Shown here one piece after another: positions 29,613 through 31,953 of a stretch of DNA of 59,670 nucleotides (its first letter is position 1; each line of letters begins with the position of its first letter). Source of the stretch: an uncultured Lachnospiraceae bacterium. Its GTDB lineage: Bacteria > Bacillota > Clostridia > Lachnospirales > Lachnospiraceae. The DNA lies in assembly GCA_947169235.1 (NCBI GenBank), contig CAMVOY010000006.1:1-59670 (forward strand), read 5' to 3'. A program made the position numbers and the translations under genes. The notes beneath the pieces were generated by a model. That model saw only the letters and a list, made by a program, of their open reading frames with translations. It had not been told where the DNA came from and searched no databases.

Positions 29613-29693
29613 CGTGTTCGCCTTCTTTGAAACCGGATGAAAAACAGATGGTTCAAAGGAGTACAAGCGCTACCGAAAGGAGAAAAGAACATG
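29613..29693 (+). promoter_or_regulatory. S_MK (SAM-III)-like translational riboswitch of metK
   Basis: Two mutually exclusive helices are visible. (1) CTTCTTT (29622-29628) pairs with AAAGGAG (29676-29682), the metK ribosome site, and CGTGTTC (29613-29619) pairs with GAACATG (29687-29693), which includes the start codon. (2) CTTTGAAACC (29625-29634) pairs with GGTTCAAAG (29650-29658) with one bulge, using the same anti-ribosome-site bases. Between and after them stand GGATG (29635-29639), CAGATG (29645-29650) and TACCGAAAGG (29671-29680). These closely resemble the S_MK box core known from metK leaders of Lactobacillales (GGAUG...CAGAUG...AACCGAAAGGGG). In S_MK boxes SAM favours the helix hiding the ribosome site, shutting off SAM synthetase. 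Identification is by motif and pairing logic only. Confidence 0.65.
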
Positions 29694-30923
29694 GGAAAAA
29701 TCTTATTTACGTCCGAGTCCGTAACAGAGGGGCATCCGGACAAAATCTGCGATCAGATATCTGATGCGATTCTTGATGCGATCTACAAGCAGGACCCTAT
29801 GAGCCGTGTGGCTTGTGAGACCGCGATCACAACAAACTTCGTATGTATCATAGGCGAGATATCAACCGGAGCGAGGTTGGGACCGAAGGACTTCGAGCAG
29901 ATAGCCAGAGACATGATCTGCGAGATCGGATATGACGACGAAGCAAAGGGCTTCAACGGAAGAACCTGCGAGGTGATCGTAAAGCTTGATAAACAGTCTG
30001 CGGACATCGCGCTCGGCGTCGACAATTCACTTGAGACCAAGCAGGATTCAGATGCGGACGGAGTGTTCAACAAAACCGATATGGGAATGACTGATGCCGA
30101 GATCGACAAGATCGGAGCCGGCGATCAGGGAATGATGTTCGGATTTGCAACAAATGAGACGGAGACATACATGCCATACCCGGCATACATGGCGCAGAGT
30201 CTCGCAAAAAAGCTTACAGAAGTTCGTAAAAATGGCACGCTTGACTACCTTCGTGCCGACGGCAAAACTCAGGTAACAGTTGAGTACGATGAGAACAAAA
30301 AGCCAAAAAGGATCGATGCATTGGTGGTATCAACCCAGCACAGCGAGGATGTGAGCCAGCATCAGATCCATGAGGATATAAGAAAATATGTTATCGATCC
30401 GGTCGTGTCAAAAGATCTTATCGATGATAAAACAAGGATATATATCAATCCTACAGGCAGATTTGTGATCGGAGGTCCGAACGGAGATGCAGGACTCACC
30501 GGAAGAAAGATCATCGTTGACACCTACGGTGGTATGGGACGTCACGGCGGCGGTGCTTTCTCGGGAAAGGATCCGACAAAGGTTGACCGTTCGGGTGCGT
30601 ATGCAGCCCGCTACGTAGCGAAAAATATCGTGGCAGCGGGACTTTGTGACAGAGCAGAGGTTCAGCTTTCATATGCTATCGGAGTCGCCTGGCCGACATC
30701 CGTGCGTATAGATACTTTTGGTACCGGAAAGCTTCCTGAAGAAAAGCTCGTAGATATTATCTTTGATAACTTCGACCTGCGCCCGGCAGGTATAATAAAA
30801 ATGCTTGACCTGCGTCGCCCGATCTATAAACAGACCGCGGCTTACGGACATTTCGGAAGGCACGATATAGACGTGCCTTGGGAGAAGCTCGATAAGGTCG
30901 ATGCCCTTAAAAAGTATTTGTAA
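29691..30923 (+). CDS. metK: S-adenosylmethionine synthetase
   Basis: 410 residues from the ATG at 29691 (GAAAGGAG, spacing 8). It makes SAM from methionine and ATP. Motifs: [19 protein letters not shown] at the start, [15 protein letters not shown] near residue 145, and the P-loop [16 protein letters not shown] near residue 285. Full length. It is preceded by its own promoter and the S_MK-like leader, so it is probably feedback-controlled by SAM at translation. Palindromic element D begins 7 bases after the stop. Confidence 0.96.
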
Positions 30924-30929
30924 TTTTAG

Positions 30930-31057
30930 AGGCGTGAGTCCAACGCGCCGACTCGAAGTCTGCGACTTCTCGTGGTATGTTGGGTTCATGTGCGCGCGGA
31001 TGAGACTCCATGCATGCAAGCATGCAGCAGTCTCATCAGTCGCGCACACTCACGCCT
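30930..31057. repeat. Palindromic element D (three-way junction) between metK and tRNA-Arg
   Basis: A perfect 10-bp outer stem (AGGCGTGAGT at 30930-30939 with 31048-31057) closes two hairpins. Hairpin 1, 30940-30983: CCAAC/GTTGG with apical GAAGTC/GACTTC. Hairpin 2, 30990-31047: GTGCGCG/CGCGCAC, then GATGAGACT/AGTCTCATC (30999-31007 with 31029-31037), then TGCATGC/GCATGCA around AA. The plan is the same as in element B, but the sequences are unrelated. It has no T-run, so it does not look like a classical terminator. It ends 5 bases before the tRNA. Confidence 0.85.
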
Positions 31058-31062
31058 TATGC

Positions 31063-31134
31063 GCTCCTGTAGTTAAATGGATATAACAGCCCCCTCCTAA
31101 GGGGCAGTTGTGGGTTCGATTCCCGCCAGGAGTA
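31063..31134 (+). tRNA. tRNA-Arg, anticodon CCT
   Basis: Cloverleaf read directly: acceptor GCTCCTG with CAGGAGT (31063-31069 with 31127-31133), discriminator A, anticodon stem GCCCC/GGGGC around the loop CTCCTAA (anticodon CCT, decoding AGG), and T arm GTGGG/CCCGC with TTCGATT. The D arm is short (GTTAAATGGATATAAC). CCA is not encoded. Confidence 0.92.
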
Positions 31135-31150
31135 CTCGCGAAAAAAATAC

Positions 31151-31342
31151 GACGCGTAACACGTGATGGTCTGTGGCATCAGTAGAGAGCTCGCTCTCTA
31201 TCTGATGCTACGGACCTCACGTGCACGTGCGAATGCACGCGGGCTGCTTGGAGCATGCTCCAAGCAGCTTACGCGTCGAGTGGAGTGCGAATGCACGCGG
31301 GCCGACTGGTGCGAGCGCCAGTCGGCTTACGCGTCGAGTGGA
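31151..31342. repeat. Palindromic element F with two tandem 58-bp units carrying exchanged palindromic cores
   Basis: Part 1 (31160-31223) is a three-step hairpin: CACGTGA/TCACGTG, GCATCAG/CTGATGC, TAGAGAG/CTCTCTA. Part 2 is two head-to-tail 58-bp units, 31227-31284 and 31285-31342. Each has an identical left flank GTGCGAATGCACGCGGG (itself a GTGC/GCAC mini-hairpin), a 24-bp core, and an identical right flank CTTACGCGTCGAGTGGA. Core 1 (31244-31267) is a perfect palindrome with arms CTGCTTGGAGCA. Core 2 (31302-31325) has arms CCGACTGG/CCAGTCGG and unrelated sequence. GACGCGTAA at 31151-31159 is the exact complement of TTACGCGTC in both right flanks (31269-31277 and 31327-31335), so it can pair with either. 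The end of unit 2 supplies the GGAG ribosome site of the next gene. Confidence 0.88.
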
Positions 31343-31353
31343 GTGTGTTATTT

Positions 31354-31953
31354 ATGATTAAGAACGTGATCTTTGATGTTGGCGACACCCTGATCGACTT
31401 TCGCCATCAGGACTATATGCGCGATCTCGGCTTTTCTGAAGAGACGATCAGGTTTCTTACCGATAACATGATCTTTACGGATTTTTGGAAAGAACTTGAC
31501 GCAGGAAAAAAGGATATGGATGAAGCCTGCGATCATTTTTGCAACCTGTATCCCGATCTGGAAAAAGAAATAAAAGCCTTCTGGGAAAACATAGAAGACA
31601 TAGTGTCGGAGTTCGACTTTTCACATGATCTGGTCATGTCCATGAAGGAAAAAGGATACAAGGTATTTTTGTTATCAAACTATCCCCAAAAACTCGCAGA
31701 AATACATTGGCCGAAGCTGTCATTTTTTCCTGAGATGGATGGCTATATAATCTCTGCAAAAGTGGGTATTATAAAACCGGACGAAAAGATATACAGGATA
31801 CTCATGGACAGGTATCGAATGCATGCCGAAGAATGTGTCTTTATTGACGATAATCCGGAAAATATAAATGCTGCAAAAAAACTGGGTATCACTGCGATAC
31901 TTTTTACCGGATATGATGATCTTAAAAAGGAACTTGACAGATTAAATATATAG
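31354..31953 (+). CDS. HAD-superfamily phosphatase (YihX-like)
   Basis: 199 residues from the ATG at 31354. The nucleophile motif is NVIFDVGDTLIDF: the first Asp is present, but the usual second Asp is Gly, as in the DxGN variant of YihX-type phosphatases. Motif II is LLSNY, the lysine is in GIIKPDEKIY and the acidic motif is CVFIDDNPENI. The helical cap between them places it in subclass I. Substrate unknown. Its ribosome site (TGGAGTG) lies in the last bases of palindromic element F, so folding of that element could affect its translation. A terminator follows. Confidence 0.85.
   Translation: MIKNVIFDVGDTLIDFRHQDYMRDLGFSEETIRFLTDNMIFTDFWKELDAGKKDMDEACDHFCNLYPDLEKEIKAFWENIEDIVSEFDFSHDLVMSMKEKGYKVFLLSNYPQKLAEIHWPKLSFFPEMDGYIISAKVGIIKPDEKIYRILMDRYRMHAEECVFIDDNPENINAAKKLGITAILFTGYDDLKKELDRLNI

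Follow-up and report, generated by a model that had tools for sequence, protein, structure and literature searches.

The question raised by this locus is how two adjacent repeats can be identical in their flanks and different in their cores, with both cores still able to pair with themselves. The locus lies in a window of 59,670 nucleotides (the whole stretch of DNA that was analysed) from an uncultured Lachnospiraceae bacterium, taken from contig C6 of a 2.37-Mb genome assembled in 106 contigs. The tandem units sit between the gene for tRNA-Arg(CCT) and a hydrolase gene. We consider, with moderate confidence, that they represent a duplicated 3′ half-module of a structured element, Clostridiales-1-like and MITE-like, behind tRNA-Arg(CCT), whose cores have changed with pairing kept.

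The element behind tRNA-Arg(CCT) and its two units

Table 1. Position of the features at the locus, in window coordinates.
Feature	Position	Strand	Basis or composition
SAM synthetase gene (metK)	29637-30923		Pfam
Second Clostridiales-1-like element, between metK and tRNA-Arg	30930..31057	-	RF01699 30 bits, below the cut-off of 48
tRNA-Arg(CCT), immediately 5′ of the element	31063..31135	+	ARAGORN; Rfam tRNA 64.8 bits
Closing stem P1, 5′ strand CGACGCGTAA, complementary to both units	31150..31159	+	Sequence; fold
Long hairpin P2, apical GAG-CTCG-CTC	31160..31223	+	R1 match; fold
Unit 1	31227..31284	+	P3 hairpin 31227-31238; GCGGG 31239-31243; P4 core 31244-31267; P1 3′ strand 31269-31278; trailing AGTGGA
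Unit 2	31285..31342	+	P3 hairpin 31285-31296; GCGGG; P4 core 31302-31325; second P1 3′ strand 31327-31336; trailing AGTGGA
HAD-family hydrolase gene, 3′ of the element	31354..31953	+	Pfam PF00702, 61.4 bits

Each unit corresponds to the 3′ half (P3, GCGGG, a variable P4 and the 3′ strand of P1) of an element of about 130 nt organized as a four-way junction. The region 31135-31350 folds far more stably than shuffled sequences (z -10.5; none of 200 reached its stability), and in the predicted four-way junction the upstream strand closes on unit 1. The closing strand TTACGCGTCG is present in both units and is complementary to the upstream strand, in agreement with the preliminary description, in which an upstream 9-mer was complementary to either unit. 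The second element, between metK and the tRNA gene, has a fold z of -7.2, computed on the + strand. By inspection, the end of unit 2, GTGGAGTG (31338-31356), holds a GGAG about 10 bases 5′ of the hydrolase start codon. This GGAG may be a candidate ribosome-binding site of the hydrolase gene and could constrain the end of unit 2.

The units are arranged head to tail, and their two 17-nt flanks are indeed identical, with 83% identity over the whole 58 nt. Differences affect none of the 34 flank positions and 10 of the 24 core positions (Fisher p 4e-5). The cores had been said to share almost no sequence, which is not the case: placed in register, CTGCTTGGAGCATGCTCCAAGCAG and CCGACTGGTGCGAGCGCCAGTCGG are identical at 14/24 positions. 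Moreover, the 10 differences make up five complete pairs, an arrangement expected with a chance of 4e-4 for randomly placed differences; pairs 2/23, 4/21, 5/20 and 9/16 are still paired, and 12/13 is the apex. The claim that stem letters change with pairing kept is thus borne out (four of five altered pairs), and the claim that both cores are palindromic holds fully for core 1, which is perfect, and in part for core 2, which is paired with one T.G pair and has an unpaired apex. Unrelated cores are ruled out by the in-register comparison. Judging from the letters of the two units, the window cores are homologous stems with covarying divergence rather than an unrelated insert, and the wording of exchanged cores is overstated.

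Most of the flank (GTGC-GAAT-GCAC, GCGGG, CTTACGCGT) is unchanged in the element found at the same site in the relative G002. The last 8 nt of the units, CGAGTGGA, are not conserved there, so a family-wide constraint does not account for their identity in both units. This identity sits ill with a slow drift of the cores and points to a fairly young duplication with fast or one-step core change. A template-driven process that keeps palindromes and selection for pairing could each hold the stems. The build of the repeat is unusual, as first noted. The preliminary description had named, as observations against itself, flanks occurring nowhere else and a single unit in relatives diverging in core and flanks alike. 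In the genomes and contigs searched, the exact flank pair was found only in the window, but the left-flank motif occurs in eight other genomes of the genus; at the same site, G002 carries a single unit, whose core has covaried while its flanks are conserved.

Relatives in the genus and the Rfam family RF01699

The exact flank pair, with 10-40 nt between its halves, was found nowhere outside the window among 61 genomes, and with 10-30 nt between there were 0 matches in genome_contigs. A search with a left-flank motif (GTGC, 2-8 nt, GCACGCGGG) gave 13 matches in 9/39 genus genomes. The reversed control pattern gave 8 matches, or 7 when summed by genome (two in G000; one each in G002, G036, G030, G022 and G019), so single matches carry little weight. 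Nine of the 13, from seven genomes including that of the window, follow an intact tRNA-Arg(CCT) at a distance of no more than about 250 nt, and the remaining four lie behind a tRNA 3′ half (G005 C60), at a contig start (two in G024) and at an unrelated site (G019).

tRNA-Arg was found in 28/39 genus genomes, and a recognizable element lies directly behind it, by reading, in 10 of these. The other 18 include four in which the contig ends less than 260 nt after the tRNA (L039, L041, L048, L057), one of which, L041 (G034), starts like an element before its contig ends. In G011 the gene order is the same as in the window and no element follows tRNA-Arg. The layout P1-P2-P3-P4 is common to 12 elements from ten genomes, with a length of 123-131 nt. 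A tRNA-anchored pattern retrieved 7 stretches from genome_contigs, of which 5 are family members behind tRNA-Arg already present in the genus set and 2 are chance matches. The P3 motif matched viral contigs 20 times, and 19 of these matches looked like chance. The other, L083:240-385, contains GTGCGAAGCACGCGGG and a palindrome (P3-GCGGG-hairpin) just 5′ of three large serine recombinases in a row.

A covariance model, R1, was built from 13 sequences including the window copy. It is restricted to P2-P3 because the whole-element MAFFT alignment did not hold in P4 and P1. The window copy, itself one of the 13, is matched over 31160-31243 with 68.3 bits (E 3e-14). Compensatory change on both sides is present in 26/31 pairs, and the covariation score is 0.589, with shuffles scoring 0.210 and slid partners 0.099-0.200; with related sequences and a structure derived from them, these values show a kept fold and are not a formal test.

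R1 has matches in 33/39 genus genomes at E<=0.1, up to 24 per genome, some of which reflect the palindrome being matched on the opposite strand as well, and in 18/116 genomes of the order at E<=0.001, own genome included. Copies of the element are many; they are intergenic and occur in related gut and rumen bacteria. Among 40 further loci (L120-L159), ARAGORN finds a tRNA in two, and the element is directly behind one of them (L135, tRNA-Thr). Other copies lie behind a 6S RNA (L121), a lysine riboswitch (L125) and a T-box leader (L122), and in other genera L202 and L208 are near a tRNA-Thr. The genome of the window contains a further copy, L157 (G000:C78), which scores 37.3 bits; by inspection its upstream flank resembles a tRNA 3′ end, and the contig ends there. 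The element starts just after a terminator-like hairpin with a T run at 15/65 loci, as compared to 64/1068 control places; the 65 are those left after removal of lookalike flanks, and a single terminator accounts for three of the 15 (L133, L137, L220), which brings the proportion nearer to 13/63.

These observations bear on the view that the element is a functional structured RNA, either trans-acting or the 3′ tail of tRNA-Arg and other transcripts, whose fold is selected and whose copies arose by ordinary duplication with no transposition. The strong covariation, the conserved loops and junction bits and the copies behind RNA genes and leaders are consistent with it, as is the entry of RF01699 in Rfam as an sRNA gene. 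Compensatory change alone is no proof of a functional RNA, and a position just after terminators, where little transcript is expected, argues against this view, as does the presence or absence of the element at the same site behind tRNA-Arg. It is regarded as unlikely.

The repeat had been thought to belong to no described family. This does not stand, since an R1 match, L140, scores 51 bits with Clostridiales-1 RNA (RF01699; gathering score 48 bits) and the tRNA-Arg element of G035 scores 41.2 bits. RF01699 has no match at the window element itself (31150-31342), searched at E<=5 and E<=1. It overlaps R1 matches in 5/20 loci scanned, with scores, beside that of L140, of 44.4 (L136), 36.9 (L122), 34.8 and 31.5 (L124) and 34.3 bits (L125). 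Among 11 scanned tRNA-Arg loci with elements, the overlap in G035 is accompanied by weak ones in G025 (28.4 bits) and G001 (25.7 bits), and in G063, G079 and G104 the two models coincide at the same places. This agreement could be partly generic, as R1 is a long hairpin with a shared loop (P2, P3). Matches are also seen upstream of tRNA-Arg: G011 has one of 35.7 bits at the place of the window's second element, and G025 and G017 have true RF01699 matches of 94 and 105 bits.

The window element and RF01699 share a closing stem around a long P2 with a GCUUGC-type loop, which is present in the folds of the genus elements as in the RF01699 consensus, together with further stems inside, a multi-copy state and a distribution in Clostridia. 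They differ in the inner stems, which in the window element are P3 (GTGC-GAAT-GCAC), GCGGG and P4, and in length, about 130 nt for the window type versus 166 consensus positions. Of the inner stems of RF01699 (AUGAGC / GCGAAU; GGGAG), an ATGAGC-like stem occurs in dispersed genus copies, whereas neither is found in the window element, which has no AUGAGC consensus stem. We regard the window element as belonging to a divergent sister group of RF01699, outside the Rfam family proper. On Clostridiales-1, the literature search returned one table row in the portion of PMC2864571 consulted and no function in print; the terms MITE, hairpin and target site yielded nothing on this family.

Tandem 3′ halves and rates of stem change

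Repetition of the 3′ half in tandem, on the downstream side, recurs across the group. Such copies were sought behind 93 element matches, picked by score rather than randomly and including orthologous copies; six of the 93 were dropped for short downstream sequence. A copy of the 3′ half, or part of it, follows in 36/87 elements (E<=0.01). Spacing is 30-113 nt in 27 of the 36, too close for a whole element, and 121-213 nt in the other nine, where the whole element may be repeated. Many of these tandem pairs have identical or almost identical cores. L159 mirrors the window pattern, with matching P3 and closing strand and the cores CCAC-GAA-GTGG and TATGC-GAA-GCATA, and L136, outside the 36, has a second core unlike the first, in less regular surroundings. 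In G035, two near-identical half-units are followed by one of another type. In G009, 3′ ends of two types alternate on two contigs, which may reflect mixed strains in one assembly.

At L034 (G005:C60), the 3′ half of tRNA-Arg, from the anticodon on, precedes a near-identical copy of the element, an arrangement that resembles an attachment-site duplication. Accretion at a recombinase attachment site, in which elements integrating at tRNA-Arg leave their 3′ flanks as tandem remnants, would fit this second G005 copy and also the alternating A and B ends of G009, if the latter are not a strain mixture. We regard it as very improbable, as loci without a tRNA detected by ARAGORN have tandem copies too, and no integrase was recognized, by inspection, among the window ORFs between 26000 and 37000.

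The divergence of P2 was compared with that of 4-fold sites of the neighbouring genes in 19 orthologous pairs, which are not mutually independent. In distant pairs the two are close (P2 versus 4-fold: window-G002 0.38 versus 0.44; G015-G014 0.46 versus 0.48), and in the set G032/G034/G022/G035 P2 reaches 0.29-0.52 versus 0.60-0.62. Several closer pairs are well under neutral, namely, 0.03 versus 0.29, 0.05 versus 0.23, 0.09 versus 0.18 and 0.09 versus 0.32. The G025 copy at one locus gives pairs at or above neutral: 0.34 versus 0.11 (G021a), 0.29 versus 0.16 (G017a), 0.28 versus 0.21 and 0.26 versus 0.25. G015-G004 at tRNA-Arg is above neutral too, at 0.29 with 0/18 4-fold sites changed, a small number of sites; the G035-G017 comparison comprises 20 sites. 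With G025 as the exception, the 4-fold comparison rules out that stems in general diverge more than neutral sites. At the G025 locus (L139, G025:C5), an orthologous element with two further tandem copies alongside has a P2 in which both arms depart blockwise from those of its relatives, as though a block of that stem had been replaced.

Template switching in DNA replication could keep and rewrite the palindromes without RNA selection, one arm being copied from the other in unselected DNA hairpins. In the part of PMC8794818 consulted, this process is said to be capable of forming and preserving stems, and P2 stems near the 4-fold rate in distant orthologues are what would be expected of free sequence with kept pairing. 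The block difference of G025 on both arms fits as well. Conversely, the process leaves the conserved P3, GYGGG and P2 loop unexplained, and several of the close pairs lie well below neutral. As a full account it is possible, though on the unlikely side, and it may supplement the favoured explanation instead of replacing it.

A further reading, that of the preliminary description, is block exchange, in which gene conversion or an enzyme would trade whole P4 or P2 stems between copies. The excess of the G025 P2 over 4-fold sites in the pairs with G021a and G017a would agree with such exchange, as would the differing second cores of L159 and L136, the two stem types with shared flanks among the RF01699 copies of G148, a genome of another genus described below, and the identity of CGAGTGGA in both window units. 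The window cores themselves, with their in-register identity and paired differences, speak against it; in a 209-base search of 39 genus genomes core 1 was found nowhere else beyond short weak matches, and no donor was identified. Replacement of the cores by an enzyme is superfluous here because the cores are homologous in register and the divergence of orthologous stems, the G025 locus apart, mostly does not exceed that of 4-fold synonymous sites, and core exchange as a whole is judged decidedly improbable.

Proposed mobility and comparison with known repeats

RF01699 occurs in 24/146 genomes of the order (17 above cut-off; at most 18 matches per genome) and in 0/14 control genomes. In G148 many copies are near-identical, and they carry inverted-repeat ends and flanking direct repeats. 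Direct repeats of 5-11 nt are found at 11/16 ends, whereas permutation gave a mean of 2.5 and a maximum of 7 (0/5000 reach 11); the end rule was chosen with the copies already in view, and the recurrent ATTTTA makes the control higher. The repeats are ATTTTA five times and CTTACT, ATAAGT, ATACT, ATATTTT, ATAGCAT and an 11-mer once each. The 16 ends comprise 12 of 17 copies with a recognized 3′ end, 5 being left out, and four internal-deletion derivatives from ten lone-end stretches. The end motif (GATG..GGGTCAAAAG) has 76 matches in G148 and 0 in the reversed control. No transposase was recognized, by inspection, among the ORFs of the ten stretches with lone end motifs. Four G148 copies (L193, L195, L209 and L211, the last cut by a contig end) bear inserts of about 50 nt, consisting of a variable palindrome and then a conserved GACCGAAGCGGAGCGTA.

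The RF01699 relatives in this other genus look like mobile DNA, and their inverted-repeat ends with flanking duplications weigh further against a functional RNA multiplied by ordinary duplication. Among the copies examined in the window's genus there was no clear case of target-site duplication, and mobility there is something we infer from homology, dispersal and presence or absence. Beyond the anatomy, the covariation, the dispersal within the genus and the recurrent tandem 3′ halves observed here, the favoured explanation would involve several steps. The whole group would be a MITE-like, non-autonomous mobile element moved in trans. At the window locus, the half-module (P3, GCGGG, P4 and the 3′ strand of P1) would have been doubled via slippage or unequal recombination between repeated parts. 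The P4 cores would then have changed while remaining paired, owing to selection for the fold, to palindrome repair by template switching or to both, and the single upstream P1 strand would be able to close on either unit. A bolder version, in which 3′ half-modules pile up behind tRNAs and terminators while element- or replication-linked copying rewrites whole paired blocks and makes nearly every copy unique, would describe a mobile element with renewable stem modules; it is offered as a long shot.

If the favoured explanation is right, an orphan Rfam family becomes tied to a mobile-element reading and is extended to a divergent group mostly missed by the Rfam cut-off. The recurrent tandem half-modules would in addition serve as natural replicates on how stems change, by selection, template switching or exchange.

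Among known systems, the GTAG- and CGTC-tagged REPs are described in the part of PMC3733652 consulted as palindromic and extragenic, mostly 3′ of coding regions, and are thought to be miniature transposons. The present element is likewise palindromic and extragenic, but REPs measure 20-40 bp and carry a fixed tag, whereas this is a four-stem element of 123-131 nt and is not a REP in that sense. According to the sections of PMC6542083 consulted, bcr1 and other Bacillus cereus repeats are non-coding, 100-400 bp long, with mobile features and an AT-rich TTTAT site motif. The likeness to them, drawn from that description, lies in the non-coding nature, the mobile features and the AT-rich site motif, whereas those repeats are reported there in the B. 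cereus group only. MITEs are distinguished by a partner transposase, for which no counterpart was found in the ten G148 stretches inspected, and by ends and duplications that are seen in G148 and not clearly in the window's genus. As in MITEs, the element is short and non-coding, and its G148 relatives have inverted-repeat ends together with target duplications.
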